NCBI GenBank assembly: GCA_009699205.1
Contig: WLOP01000003.1
Coordinates: 62,001 to 126,000, forward strand
Reading direction: 5' to 3'
DNA from: Actinomycetota bacterium
GTDB lineage: Bacteria; Actinomycetota; Actinomycetes; Nanopelagicales; Nanopelagicaceae
DNA length: 64,000 nt
A program made the position numbers and the translations under genes. The first letter of the stretch is position 1. Every line of letters starts with the position of its first letter. The notes beneath the pieces are model-generated. The model searched no databases. It was given only the letters and a program-made list of their open reading frames with translations, and was not told the DNA's origin. Of this stretch, positions 58,798 through 64,000 are shown piece after piece.

Positions 58798-59711
58798 TGC
58801 GCGTTGCCGCCATAGATTGTGGAACTAATTCGATTCGTTTGCTTATCGCAGATGTAGATGGCGTTAATTTCCGCGAAGTTTATCGGACGATGGAGATTGT
58901 CAGATTAGGTCAAGGAGTAGATCAAACGGGTCGATTCCATCCTGATGCGATCACACGCACCCTTGCAGCGGTAGACCTTTTTGCTGGCGAGATTAGGCGT
59001 CGAGGTGTTGAAAAGATTCGCTTTTGCGCAACGAGTGCTACGCGCGATGCTACAAATCGTGACTTGTTCCTCAATGGTGTGAACGAGCGCCTTGGCATTT
59101 TCCCAGAGGTTATTTCTGGAGAAGAAGAAGCAACGCTTTCATTTCAAGGCGCGATACGAGAACTTTCACAATCCCAATCACCATTCTTAGTCGTAGATAT
59201 CGGTGGCGGATCCACCGAATTTGTCTTTGGCAGCTCAATTGTTGAATCAGCTAAGAGCGTCAATATTGGCTGCGTCCGTATGTCAGAACGACATTTCAAA
59301 TCTGATCCACCATCTGCGGACGAGATTGCCCTTGCGACCGAGGACATCAAAATAGCGATTGCTGAAGCAGCCTCAATCGTTCCAATTACAAAAGCAAAGA
59401 CACTCGTTGCGGTTGCAGGCACCGCAACCACTGTGGCAGCAGCTGCTTTAGGTCTCGAAGAATATGACAGGTACGCAATTCACCTTTCGCGAATCTCAGC
59501 AGCACAAGTGGCCGAAGTTTCACAGATGTTCTTATCTCTTAGTAGCGCGGCACGCGCAGCTCTCGGCTACATGCATCCTGGACGGGTTGATGTAATCCCC
59601 GCAGGCGCACTTGTTCTCAATCAAGTCATGATTGCAACGGGTGCTAAAGAATTTGTAGCATCCGAAACAGATATCCTCGATGGAATTGCGTGGTCTCTTG
59701 CCTCGAGTTAA
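58797..59711 (+). CDS. ppx: Exopolyphosphatase / guanosine pentaphosphate phosphohydrolase (Ppx/GppA)
   Basis: A 304-residue ASKHA-fold phosphatase. AIDCGTNSIRLLIADVDG (residues 4-21), TSATRDATNRDLFL, GEEEATLSFQG, VDIGGGSTEFVFG and AGTATTVAAAALGL mark the family. It is the short form lacking the HD-like C-terminal domain. Releases phosphate from polyphosphate or converts pppGpp to ppGpp. Translationally coupled to DUF501; its end overlaps the UDG gene by 32 bases. Confidence 0.95.
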   Translation: MRVAAIDCGTNSIRLLIADVDGVNFREVYRTMEIVRLGQGVDQTGRFHPDAITRTLAAVDLFAGEIRRRGVEKIRFCATSATRDATNRDLFLNGVNERLGIFPEVISGEEEATLSFQGAIRELSQSQSPFLVVDIGGGSTEFVFGSSIVESAKSVNIGCVRMSERHFKSDPPSADEIALATEDIKIAIAEAASIVPITKAKTLVAVAGTATTVAAAALGLEEYDRYAIHLSRISAAQVAEVSQMFLSLSSAARAALGYMHPGRVDVIPAGALVLNQVMIATGAKEFVASETDILDGIAWSLASS

Positions 59712-60435
59712 ACGAACTGCGGTTGCAAAAGTTGCGGCACAGTGCACTTCGCTTCTACAAATTGATACATCAATTACCGAGTGCAACGCCTGCCCTCGCT
59801 TAGTCCAATGGCGAGAGGAAGTCGCAGTAGTTAAACGCAAGGCATATCTCAATCATGATTACTGGGGCAAGCCAATTTCAGGATTTGGCGATAGCAAGCC
59901 ACGTTTATTAATTATTGGTTTAGCACCTGGTGCGCACGGCGCAAATCGAACGGGACGGGTATTTACCGGTGACCCATCTGGAGATTGGTTATTTGGATCG
60001 CTGCACCGACTTGGTATCGCCAAAATTCCCACAAGCACCGGGCGCGAAGATGGACAGAAGTTGAAACAGACGCGCATCACCACAGCAGTGCGATGTGCGC
60101 CACCAGATAATAAGCCGAGTAATGAAGAACGTGATAAGTGCTCACCATGGCTATTGCGTGAATTTGAGATTGCCCAATCAACGACGAGAGCTTTTGTTGG
60201 TCTTGGAGGATTCGCATGGAGTGCGCTCATCAAGGCGTTGCGCGAGTTAGGTCATCCGATCCCAACAGTGAAGTTCGGTCACGGAGCAACTTATACATAT
60301 AGCCATAACGGCAATGAATATATGCTGATCGCCAGTTACCACCCCAGCCAACAGAACACTTTTACCGGGAAATTGACGGAGAAAATGTTGGATTCTGTTC
60401 TCCAAAAAGCGGGTACATTTGCCCACGTTATCTAG
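59680..60435 (+). CDS. Family 5 uracil-DNA glycosylase (UDGb)
   Basis: A 251-residue Fe-S DNA glycosylase. CNACPRLVQWREEV (about 35-48) and later Cys (RCAPPDNKPS, DKCSPW) are the 4Fe-4S ligands; motif A is IGLAPGAHGANRTGRVFTGD, where the usual catalytic Asp position has Ala-His, typical of UDGb; motif B is SYHPSQQNTFTG. Removes uracil, hypoxanthine or damaged pyrimidines. Start ATG 59680 overlaps ppx by 32 bases; TTG 59686 or 59698 are possible. Immediately upstream of tRNA-Leu. Confidence 0.9.
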   Translation: MELRGLLPRVKRTAVAKVAAQCTSLLQIDTSITECNACPRLVQWREEVAVVKRKAYLNHDYWGKPISGFGDSKPRLLIIGLAPGAHGANRTGRVFTGDPSGDWLFGSLHRLGIAKIPTSTGREDGQKLKQTRITTAVRCAPPDNKPSNEERDKCSPWLLREFEIAQSTTRAFVGLGGFAWSALIKALRELGHPIPTVKFGHGATYTYSHNGNEYMLIASYHPSQQNTFTGKLTEKMLDSVLQKAGTFAHVI

Positions 60436-60441
60436 CACGTG

Positions 60442-60517
60442 GCCCCGATAGCCCAATGGCAGAGGCAGAGGACTTAAAATCCTCCCAGTGTGGGTTCGAC
60501 CCCCACTCGGGGCACCA
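60442..60517 (+). tRNA. tRNA-Leu (anticodon UAA), class I-shaped
   Basis: A 76-base cloverleaf: acceptor GCCCCGA/TCGGGGC, D-arm GCCC...AGGC, anticodon stem GAGGA/TCCTC around CTTAAAA (anticodon TAA), 5-base variable loop CCAGT, T-stem GTGGG/CCCAC, discriminator A, encoded CCA. The anticodon reads UUA (Leu), but the long variable arm of usual leucine tRNAs is missing. The last 41 bases are repeated at 61964-62004. Confidence 0.93.
60477..60517 (+). repeat. 41-bp direct repeat, tRNA-proximal copy (att site)
   Basis: Identical over 41 bases to 61964-62004. It starts at the third anticodon base of the tRNA and runs through the CCA end; bases on either side differ. This is where tyrosine integrases typically recombine in tRNA genes. 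Confidence 0.95.
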
Positions 60518-60558
60518 ATATTTCTATCATCCAATCGATTGATATCGAGGCCACCCAT

Positions 60559-60564
60559 TAATAT
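60559..60564 (+). promoter_or_regulatory. -10 box of a leaderless promoter (island peptidase gene)
   Basis: TAATAT, then TGAATT, then ATG 60571. Same six-base spacer sequence as at 21335-21340. The island therefore seems to carry its own promoter inside the left repeat boundary. Confidence 0.5.
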
Positions 60565-60570
60565 TGAATT

Positions 60571-61965
60571 ATGAAGCGCTTCAAAATAGCTTTAGTAATC
60601 CCAGCGCTTCTCATCGCCTTTATTCCATCAATAGCTAAAGCACAACCAACTAATAATTGCCGTATCGAAACATCTCCGTGGAATATCGTTTCACTTGGAT
60701 TTCCATTGAAAGTAGAAAGACTGGCAAATAAAACTAATCCCAAAATTCTGATTTTGCCGTATCAACTAAAAGGAGAGCCTGAATACACTTTCACCGAAGT
60801 GGACAAAGAAAGCTTCAATGGTGCAGTAAGAAACATAAGCCAATTATCTGGAAATAAGAGCAACGTAACCCTCGTCTTTAGTGAAGCTTTAGAATTAGGT
60901 CAGTCGGCAGCTGATCTAGATTTCATAAAGAGAAACGTCCAGATGACCTGGCAGACTGACTTTGAGAAATCTACCTTTGGTTTTGTCACAAAGACGATAC
61001 TTGCTGGGGACTCAAAGATTGATTACAAAGGTATAGATGCTGTTGTCTTGTTTGGCTCCTCACAAAGCAAGAAAGAATATATTGGCGAAGCAATGATGTT
61101 CACTAATGATACGAGTATAAAAAATAATCCTAAGAAATCATCAGGTGGTAGCTGGTGGGATCCCATAAAAACAAGTGAAGGTGAAATTTCAAACGCGGTG
61201 TTACTCTATAACGATCTTTCCACCGACACAATCACACACGAAATTATGCATCTTTATGGTCTCACTGATTTATATGGCTCAGTAAGTAGCCCAAATTTCA
61301 GCATTATGGCTACAGGCGGATTAAAACCTGCCACCCTTCTTCCATATGAAAAATGGGTTCTGGGTTGGTTGCCCGACGAAAGCGTTACTTGTGTTAATTC
61401 GATAACTGAGCTTTCTTCAAATCCTGCCGATAATAGATTCACTTTTGACTACTCAACGGGTGATAAGACTCTTGTAATCCCAACTGGTTCTACAACTGCA
61501 TTAATTGTTGATGTCTTCAATTATCAGCAGAGTACCTACCTGCAATATTATTCTTTAGACAATAATGCACGCCCTCCGATTTTAAGAGTTACACCGGGGC
61601 CACTGCGTTTAAGTAATTTTCGAGGAGTATCAACTCAATTTGAGTCTCCAAACTACACATTATTGATTAGTGATAACGACGGTTCAAATGTTGTCATCAA
61701 TCTAATTCCTACCAGTGGTGTTAATTCCGTAGATTCGGTGCAGCTCATTACTAAGGCTGGTTCAAGAAAGTTAGAAATCGATGCCATGCTCATTGCCAAG
61801 CAAGAAGCAGATGCCAAGGCTGCGGCAGAGTTAAAAGCCAAAAAGGAATCAGACGCTAAAGCTGCTGCGGTTAAGAAAACGACCATCACTTGCGTCAAAG
61901 GTAAGCTCACTAAGAAAGTAACTACGATTAAGCCAGTTTGTCCTGCCGGGTACAAAAAGAAGTAA
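60571..61965 (+). CDS. Secreted M6-like zinc metallopeptidase (island cargo)
   Basis: A 464-residue exported protein. Signal peptide (KRFKIALVIPALLIAFIPS...KA). Zinc site HEIMHLYGLTD at residues 223-233 (HExxH with a third ligand as in metzincin/M6 immune-inhibitor-A-like peptidases), followed by a Met-turn-like SIMATGG. The C-terminal part is a beta-rich domain, then an Ala/Lys/Asp helix (about 409-436) and a tail TITCVKGKLTKKVTTI...CPAGYKKK. The last two bases of the stop codon lie inside the right att repeat. Codon composition is AT-rich. Substrates unknown; possible roles are nutrient release or attack on other cells or phage structures. Confidence 0.82.
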   Translation: MKRFKIALVIPALLIAFIPSIAKAQPTNNCRIETSPWNIVSLGFPLKVERLANKTNPKILILPYQLKGEPEYTFTEVDKESFNGAVRNISQLSGNKSNVTLVFSEALELGQSAADLDFIKRNVQMTWQTDFEKSTFGFVTKTILAGDSKIDYKGIDAVVLFGSSQSKKEYIGEAMMFTNDTSIKNNPKKSSGGSWWDPIKTSEGEISNAVLLYNDLSTDTITHEIMHLYGLTDLYGSVSSPNFSIMATGGLKPATLLPYEKWVLGWLPDESVTCVNSITELSSNPADNRFTFDYSTGDKTLVIPTGSTTALIVDVFNYQQSTYLQYYSLDNNARPPILRVTPGPLRLSNFRGVSTQFESPNYTLLISDNDGSNVVINLIPTSGVNSVDSVQLITKAGSRKLEIDAMLIAKQEADAKAAAELKAKKESDAKAAAVKKTTITCVKGKLTKKVTTIKPVCPAGYKKK

Positions 61966-62004
61966 ATCCTCCCAGTGTGGGTTCGACCCCCACTCGGGGC
62001 ACCA
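61964..62004 (+). repeat. 41-bp direct repeat, distal copy (att site)
   Basis: Perfect copy of 60477-60517 (3' half of tRNA-Leu including CCA). It is not a functional tRNA because the 5' half is missing. Its first two bases supply the AA of the upstream gene's TAA stop. Confidence 0.95.
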
Positions 62005-62056
62005 TCTGATTAATAAACCCAGAGGGCTGTGCGAACACGTGGCTCCCCCCAGGAAA

Positions 62057-62835
62057 ATGAATGCACATCAGCTAAATCTTGCTTTTCAAGTGGCGGGGCT
62101 TTCACCTCTACCCCTGGTCTCATCTCGATGCTTGCATGCACCGTTTATACCTTGGTTGCACAATCACGTGTGTTGCCAAAGTATCGCGCGGCATTAGTAA
62201 TGTCATCGATGGTTACATTTATTGCTGGCTATCACTATTTCCGAATTTTCAACTCATTTAATGAATCTTCGGTCAAGAATGCAGTCACGATCGGCACATC
62301 ACAAGGTTCATTTAACGAGGCTTACCGATACATCGATTGGATCCTTACAGTTCCACTTCTTCTCGTCGAAGTAATCGCAGTGCTTGCTCTTGCAAAGGCA
62401 GCCTCTAAGTCTTTGATCAATCGCTTGGTTCCAGCATCAGCAGCGATGATTATCTTGGGCTATCCAGGGGAAATTTCAACAGACAGTGGAACAAAGATTC
62501 TATTCGGAATCTTATCTACGCTTCCATTCCTTTACATTCTCTATGTCTTATTCGTAGAGCTAACGAAGTCAATGGACCGCCAGCCAGAGGGTGTTGCAGC
62601 GACTGTAAGCCGTTTGCGCTTACTCCTAATTGCTACCTGGGGTGTTTACCCAATTTCATATTTGATTCCAATCTTAGTGAAGAATCCATCAGCGAGTCAG
62701 ATGGCAATGCTCTTCACGGATCGCCAGATCGGTTACACAATTGCAGATGTTCTTGCAAAGTGCGTATTTGGTCTAACTATCTACAAGATTGCAAAGATGA
62801 AGTCTGTTGCTGAAGGCATGAAAGACGATCACTAA
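62057..62835 (+). CDS. Actinorhodopsin (light-driven proton pump), frameshifted near the 5' end
   Basis: A seven-helix retinal protein, about 258 residues. From ATG 62057 the frame reads MNAHQLNLAFQVAGLS, but the rest of the protein (GLISMLACTVYTLVAQ onward) is in the next frame; one extra base at about 62095-62114 (G4 or C4 run) joins them. The proton-pump triad is intact: Asp at 62335, Thr four residues later and Glu eleven later (RYIDWILTVPLLLVE); Leu eight residues after the Asp indicates green tuning; retinal Lys at 62758 (DVLAKCVFGL). A start inside the second frame would lose helix A. AGGA lies two bases before ATG 62057; GTG 62039 is an in-frame alternative start. A strong terminator follows. 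Confidence 0.88.
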
Positions 62836-63344: not shown

Positions 63345-64000
63345 ATGGCTATTTTGAACTTTAATGAGGGCGGTCGCTCACGCGCCCCCAAAAATAAAAA
63401 GTTCAAACTCATATTTGGTACCGGGCTCTTAGCGATCACGCTAGGGCTAAGTTCGACCCTTGCTGCAAATATTGATATCAACTCGGGTCCTGTTGAATTC
63501 GGGCAAGGTGTAGCGCAAACAACTGCCTGCGATGGCAACGTTGTAATGACACCAAGTTCAACTTTTTCAAATATTCAGGATGGTGGGGAATTCCTCTTTA
63601 CTTCCTTCACGGTCTCGGATATTTCGAGTGCCTGTGATGGCAAAGTTTTCACAATTAGAGCTTATAAGGATCAACAAAGCGAACCTCTTGATTTATATAC
63701 GACTGTCGGAACTACTGATCCCTATACTGAAATTCAGGTTCTAGACGATGGCGGAAGCTTCAGCTTTGTCGGGGGAGGCTTGTTAGCAGATGACATTGTA
63801 GATATCACTAATGGCTTTACGGTTTCTATGGTTACATCTGGCCCCCCAGCGAGTACTGCCGTCGCCTTAGCTAATGATGTGGATCGAATTACAATTGAGA
63901 GTGGAGAATACGTCGCAGGTACTCCCGCCCCCGTAGGTACAAGTTATATTTACGTAACAACGGATGGCGTGTCGCCCTATGCCATTGGGAGAGCAAATCT
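63345..64000 (+). CDS. Secreted surface protein (partial, runs off the window)
   Basis: ATG 63345 follows GGAGAG and the frame stays open to the last base (218 codons). The N-terminus has a 19-residue polar, Arg/Lys-rich leader (MAILNFNEGGRSRAPKNKK) before a hydrophobic segment FKLIFGTGLLAITLGLSSTL and an Ala cleavage site, so export is expected. The mature part is Ser/Thr/Gly/Asp-rich with few charges and a paired TACDG/SACDG motif, likely beta-sheet. It resembles envelope or pilin-like surface proteins of this lineage, but no family is assigned. Confidence 0.7.
   Translation, partial: MAILNFNEGGRSRAPKNKKFKLIFGTGLLAITLGLSSTLAANIDINSGPVEFGQGVAQTTACDGNVVMTPSSTFSNIQDGGEFLFTSFTVSDISSACDGKVFTIRAYKDQQSEPLDLYTTVGTTDPYTEIQVLDDGGSFSFVGGGLLADDIVDITNGFTVSMVTSGPPASTAVALANDVDRITIESGEYVAGTPAPVGTSYIYVTTDGVSPYAIGRAN

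Follow-up and report, generated by a model that had tools for sequence, protein, structure and literature searches.

A candidate minimal CIME-like insert of one gene at tRNA-Leu(UAA) in an actinobacterial genome

In integrons, a gene cassette consists of a single gene directly followed by its recombination site, the attC hairpin. Small cargo units are also found at tRNA genes. In fGI-2 of Ca. Methylopumilus, repeats of the last 20 nt of tRNA-Lys delimit islands of 330 bp to 42 kb that hold 1 to 63 CDS (PMC10872708), and fGI1 of the marine order Ca. Actinomarinales, a polysaccharide island, involves tRNA-targeted gene cassettes and five tRNAs (PMC7771536). Tycheposons are larger, at 4 to 200 kb as described in PMC10872708, and CIMEs originate, in the textbook account, by deletion of larger islands (PMC5704250). 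Islands with tRNA repeats, down to one gene in size, are already published for streamlined plankton other than the family studied here (Methylopumilus and Actinomarinales); the open-access literature searched holds no description of such islands for this family. How single genes are exchanged in streamlined plankton with few recognizable mobile elements is an open question. Here, we analyze a 64-kb stretch of DNA (the window) from a streamlined actinobacterium, probably a freshwater organism of the acI type. Within it lies a 1487-bp unit that we interpret, with a probability of roughly 0.6, as a minimal insert of the CIME-like kind, carrying cargo at tRNA-Leu(UAA) and recombined by an integrase encoded outside the insert.

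Architecture of the insert and its surroundings

All features described here lie on the forward strand. The tRNA-Leu(UAA) gene (60442 to 60517; ARAGORN; Rfam RF00005, 58.9 bits) is 76 nt long, its variable loop is short, and it is the putative attB and present attL. Repeat comparison shows that its nt 36 to 76 form a perfect 41-bp repeat, with identical copies at 60477 to 60517 (left) and 61964 to 62004 (right, the putative attR and displaced 3′ half of tRNA-Leu), spaced 1487 bp start to start; the number of 41-mer repeats expected by chance in 64 kb is ∼4e-16. Between the copies lies one long ORF (60571 to 61965; 464 aa), preceded by a 53-bp leader (60518 to 60570) devoid of a consensus promoter and of the TGCATAC motif discussed below, and the right copy begins with the last two bases of the stop codon TAA (61963 to 61965). 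The GC content is 39.9% in the insert versus 46.9% in the flanks. The sequence-only reading of this DNA, a perfect tRNA-Leu repeat around a single AT-rich gene, is thereby confirmed. Its proposal that the gene has its own promoter was not borne out: a sigma-70 consensus scan gave 0 sites between tRNA-Leu and the gene and 2 sites over the 2 kb, versus 4.8 expected, so that read-through from tRNA-Leu is possible. The proposed search for further copies of the 41-bp half returned only the bracketing pair, at up to 3 mismatches in the assembly (17 contigs, 1.42 Mb, 96% complete).

The conserved upstream neighbor, a UDG-superfamily gene (59680 to 60435; Pfam PF03167, E = 3.5e-24), is also located immediately 5′ of tRNA-Leu in relatives, e.g., G101, G044, and G246. 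Downstream, a 111-bp segment (62005 to 62115) leads to an actinorhodopsin gene (62116 to 62835; Pfam PF01036, E = 6e-42), which in the window is 3′ of the right repeat and in G002 and G014 is upstream of tRNA-Leu. The 111 bp lack homology to the actinorhodopsin upstream region of G002 and G014, and the first ∼18 codons, conserved in these two genomes, are replaced in the window by nonhomologous sequence. A gene for a 462-aa secreted protein starts at 63345 and extends beyond the end of the window (64000); its N terminus resembles the cargo that G194 and G110 carry between repeats. No tRNA remnants were found between the actinorhodopsin neighborhood and the downstream conserved gene.

The cargo protein opens with a signal-like N-terminal segment; it further contains the metzincin motif HExxHxxGxxD and a long helix, and its C-terminal tail has two cysteines and ends in GYKKK. 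Within the motif (HEIMHLYGLTD; residues 223 to 233, codons at 61237 to 61269), H223, E224, H227, G230, and D233 are invariant in 6 homologues. The M6 domain profile of NCBIfam (TIGR03296) matched weakly (E = 9.1e-10; 38.9 bits, under the curated cutoff of 110.8), and no Pfam family scored above its cutoff for the whole protein. For the predicted structure (mean pLDDT, 79.7), the top Foldseek match in the PDB was immune inhibitor A2 (4yu6; E = 2e-5), with other metzincins among the best matches; bacterial metzincin toxins in the same list show a fold-level likeness at 10 to 15% identity that is uninformative on toxicity. The sequence supports a putative secreted M6-like metzincin and does not extend to the defense or cell-surface trait that the sequence-only reading suggested. 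The C-terminal tail (residues 436 to 464; codons at 61876 to 61962) recurs across the family in secreted proteins that are unrelated in other respects; with the pattern TCVKGK..KKV....P.CPAGYKKK, it closes many of them, often several per genome.

Several observations concern other tRNA genes. The Leu tRNAs that read UUR codons (UAA and CAA anticodons) have a short variable loop and a length of 74 to 76 nt in the window's genome (60442 to 60517; L141) and in the complete genome G101 (G101:C1, L177-L249), the other Leu tRNAs found being 82 to 85 nt long; no report of such UUR-reading tRNAs was found in the open-access literature searched. Reassignment of UUR sense codons by the short-armed tRNA was ruled out, given that relatives mostly have CUN Leu codons where the ppx gene has UUA or UUG. 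Duplications of tRNA ends are likewise present in the window's genome at tRNA-Lys(CTT), and in G101 they affect Lys, Val, and Ser tRNAs. The former is a second small island (L113; G000:C14 near 91743, G000 being the window's genome), in which a 19-nt repeat of the tRNA 3′ end lies 0.9 kb downstream with one 196-aa ORF between; tRNA-Lys(CTT) of G101 carries a different one-gene insert.

The tRNA-Leu(UAA) site across the family

A search of 296 genomes of the family, one per species, that allowed up to 3 mismatches to the 35-bp tRNA half recovered this half from 110 genomes, 23 of which contain at least 2 copies; a reversed-pattern control gave 0. About 50 tRNA-Leu loci were then examined; these were picked for repeats, so the fractions that follow describe inserts and not all genomes. 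In 11 genomes, 13 integrase-less inserts of 0.66 to 3.25 kb were mapped at tRNA-Leu, 10 of which contain exactly one ORF (≥80 aa), and 8 of the 13 have the stop codon of their last gene at most 8 bp away from the right copy. Right copies in other genomes deviate by up to 6 mismatches from a 39-bp query, and that of G018 looks mosaic, as if integration swapped tRNA 3′ halves. The tRNA half itself falls into two sequence types inside one genus.

The cargo of the mapped inserts is mostly unrelated from one insert to another. Small cargo other than that of the window was found at tRNA-Leu in G017/G018, G194, G214, G221, G116, G246, G279, G031, and G101. For example, G017 and G018 carry a 196-aa membrane-like protein, G214 carries a GLUG-repeat protein, G279 carries a trypsin-like protein that ends in the GYKKK tail, and G116 carries what reads from its sequence as an alcohol-dehydrogenase-like protein; tandem units are possible in G194 and G279. 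The cargo, in many cases secreted proteins that share the C-terminal tail, points to the cell surface as the variable trait. Empty sites were identified in G002, G240, and G274. When its insert is removed, G214 aligns with the empty G274 locus in one continuous 3995-bp alignment (87%) and with the empty G240 locus in one 3066-bp alignment; in G002, tRNA-Leu is directly 5′ of the conserved downstream gene. Thus, the empty sites and alternative cargo that the sequence-only reading had suggested looking for do exist among relatives. A repeat of the tRNA 3′ end with cargo that varies between relatives, which defines an additive fGI, is present at tRNA-Leu, and the data support the view that tRNA-Leu(UAA) behaves as an integration hotspot that differs between species.

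A conserved leader of ∼260 bp, absent from the window, is found in several of the relatives' inserts; it includes an inverted copy of tRNA nt 4 to 31 as well as a TGCATAC motif. The reverse-complement copy of tRNA-Leu nt 4 to 31 was seen in leaders L046, L052, L058, L064, L084, and L096, some of which have TGCATAC motifs; these motifs are also present beside the integrase in G091 and G004.

Homologues of the window's cargo, full length or partial, were found in 10 of the 296 genomes, the window's own included, and in none of the 20 other members of its genus searched. The mobility claim was to fail if all relatives shared the same gene and repeat; this is not the case. In two species of another genus (G189 and G261), a homologous gene, with 55 to 56% identity to that of the window, occupies the same tRNA-Leu, and no right repeat was detected there; in the remaining genomes, the homologues sit at other loci. 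A 191-aa ORF intervenes between tRNA-Leu and the gene in G189, and the G261 homologue is divided between two contigs. The gene starts 53 bp past the tRNA in the window's genome and 52 bp past it in G261, and an unrooted tree places the window's protein together with its homologues from G189, G261, and G262. The neighboring ppx gene is 74 to 75% identical to that of G189 and G261; on these sequence identities, the lower value for the cargo would be consistent with either old descent or old transfer. Given that the gene occupies the same tRNA without a right repeat in G189 and G261, the association between gene and site may be old. In the window, the identity of the two repeat copies points to a later event, although gene conversion may have kept them alike.

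Integrases and the origin of the insert

A tyrosine integrase adjoins the right repeat in G004 and G101. Integrases at least 40% identical to that of G101 occur at 16 places in the family, 10 of which are beside tRNA-Leu(UAA) or its 3′ half, whereas none of 14 more distant integrase loci is (these are at other tRNAs or none; Fisher P = 3e-4, with the loci treated as independent although they are related). Integrase-bearing elements with both ends at tRNA-Leu were delimited in G101 (12.9 kb) and, at about 7 to 10 kb, in G091, G045, G110, and G239. After such an element, G110 has a one-gene insert closed by a 49-base repeat, and G101 has an integrase-less insert of 2.9 kb, tandem arrangements that the CIME accretion model predicts.

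The sequence-only reading had proposed a minimal element mobilized in trans or the remnant of a larger one. Under mobilization in trans, an incoming circle would bring a copy of the tRNA-Leu 3′ half, and a tyrosine integrase from outside the insert would recombine this half with the chromosomal tRNA-Leu, such that the incoming half completes the tRNA and the displaced half becomes the right repeat. The likely enzyme belongs to the integrase family found beside tRNA-Leu in relatives and might have come from an element that was then present or from one that had integrated in tandem at this site. The crossover position, the identity of the enzyme for the window's insert, excision, and transfer between cells are inferred in this scheme. 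The hotspot with its empty sites and varied cargo, along with the integrase-bearing elements of relatives, speaks for this scheme, and mobilization in trans of the window's insert is plausible; the lack of a close integrase homologue in its own genome and of element ends in the insert speaks against it. In the recombinase search suggested earlier, the nearest integrases in the window's genome, besides Xer-like enzymes, were of phage type, one 25% identical and one truncated near tRNA-Lys, and no close homologue of the tRNA-Leu integrase was found. Among the 11 genomes with small inserts, only G101 has a close relative of the integrase, a count that draft assemblies limit. Comparison of the insert with the ends of integrase-bearing elements revealed no shared end sequence and no TGCATAC motif, so a lambda-type enzyme may act poorly on it. 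A phage carrier is unsupported, as a viral contig collection contained neither an exact match to a 32-bp core nor a relative of the G004 integrase in a search for close relatives.

Alternatively, deletion might have reduced a larger integrase-bearing element at tRNA-Leu to a single cargo gene, leaving an immobile, decaying remnant. Larger elements do use the site, deletion of larger islands is how CIMEs classically arise (PMC5704250), and the mismatched right copies elsewhere and the repeat-less gene in G189 and G261 fit such a history. We regard it as possible but doubtful: the insert retains no trace of element ends, its coding sequence begins 53 bp after the left repeat and runs into the right one, the repeat is identical at 41 of 41 positions, and single ORFs prevail among the mapped inserts (10 of 13). 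The insertion could also be old and inherited by descent, with the repeat kept identical by gene conversion from the functional tRNA and the cargo changed by homologous recombination in conserved flanks and shared tail sequence. The occupation of the same tRNA in G189 and G261, the 52- to 53-bp spacing, the grouping in the tree, and the tail common to many cargo genes are what such descent would leave; the absence of the gene from all 20 other genus members, the missing right repeat in G189 and G261, where conversion has then not kept it, and the exact empty sites make it distinctly unlikely.

A 41-bp repeat within a 160-kb contig is short relative to usual reads, and the same arrangement recurs in independent assemblies; with a chance expectation of ∼4e-16, an accidental or assembly origin is scarcely credible. 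A broader conjecture, which we hold to be unlikely, sees tRNA-Leu(UAA) in this family as a platform for integron-like cassettes. Each unit would consist of a gene and half a tRNA, often with the TAA of the anticodon loop as its stop codon, and an integrase acting in trans from full elements at the site would exchange and stack the units. The CIME-like interpretation rests on the 41-bp repeat, the occupied and empty sites, the 13 inserts, the association of integrases with the att sequence, and the tandem arrangements in relatives; the tRNA-end duplications at other tRNAs of the window's genome and of G101 speak for it as well. With empty sites, one-gene inserts, tandems, and a candidate integrase family all at one tRNA, mobilization in trans of integrase-less inserts becomes directly testable.

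Comparison with known systems

Tycheposons share with the window's insert the tRNA site and the presence of cargo, but full tycheposons encode a tyrosine recombinase, and the insert, at 1.5 kb, has none. Integron cassettes resemble it in that one gene precedes a recombination site, and the possible tandem units of G194 and G279 extend the likeness; the site, however, is half a tRNA gene rather than an attC hairpin, and no integron integrase or platform was found. The cassettes of fGI1 in Ca. Actinomarinales are likewise small actinobacterial units at tRNAs, with a partial tRNA repeat ending the insert, but belong to a marine polysaccharide island, whereas the window's family has secreted proteins at a single tRNA-Leu. 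Similarly, fGI-2 of Ca. Methylopumilus belongs to streamlined freshwater plankton, and its direct repeats derive from the 3′ end of a tRNA; it differs in phylum and tRNA, in the 41-bp core of the window, and in the integrases beside tRNA-Leu in relatives. Relative to CIMEs (PMC5704250), the insert is unusual in consisting of one gene without the backbone of a parent element, and its mobilization is inferred. Nevertheless, it retains attL and attR as 41-bp tRNA-Leu repeats, the same att being found beside integrases in relatives, and its single long ORF, for an M6-like metallopeptidase, leaves no integration or transfer genes. Finally, the relatives G110 and G101, though not the window's own genome, show the tandem accretion known from CIMEs, in which an integrase-bearing element adjoins the insert and uses the same att.
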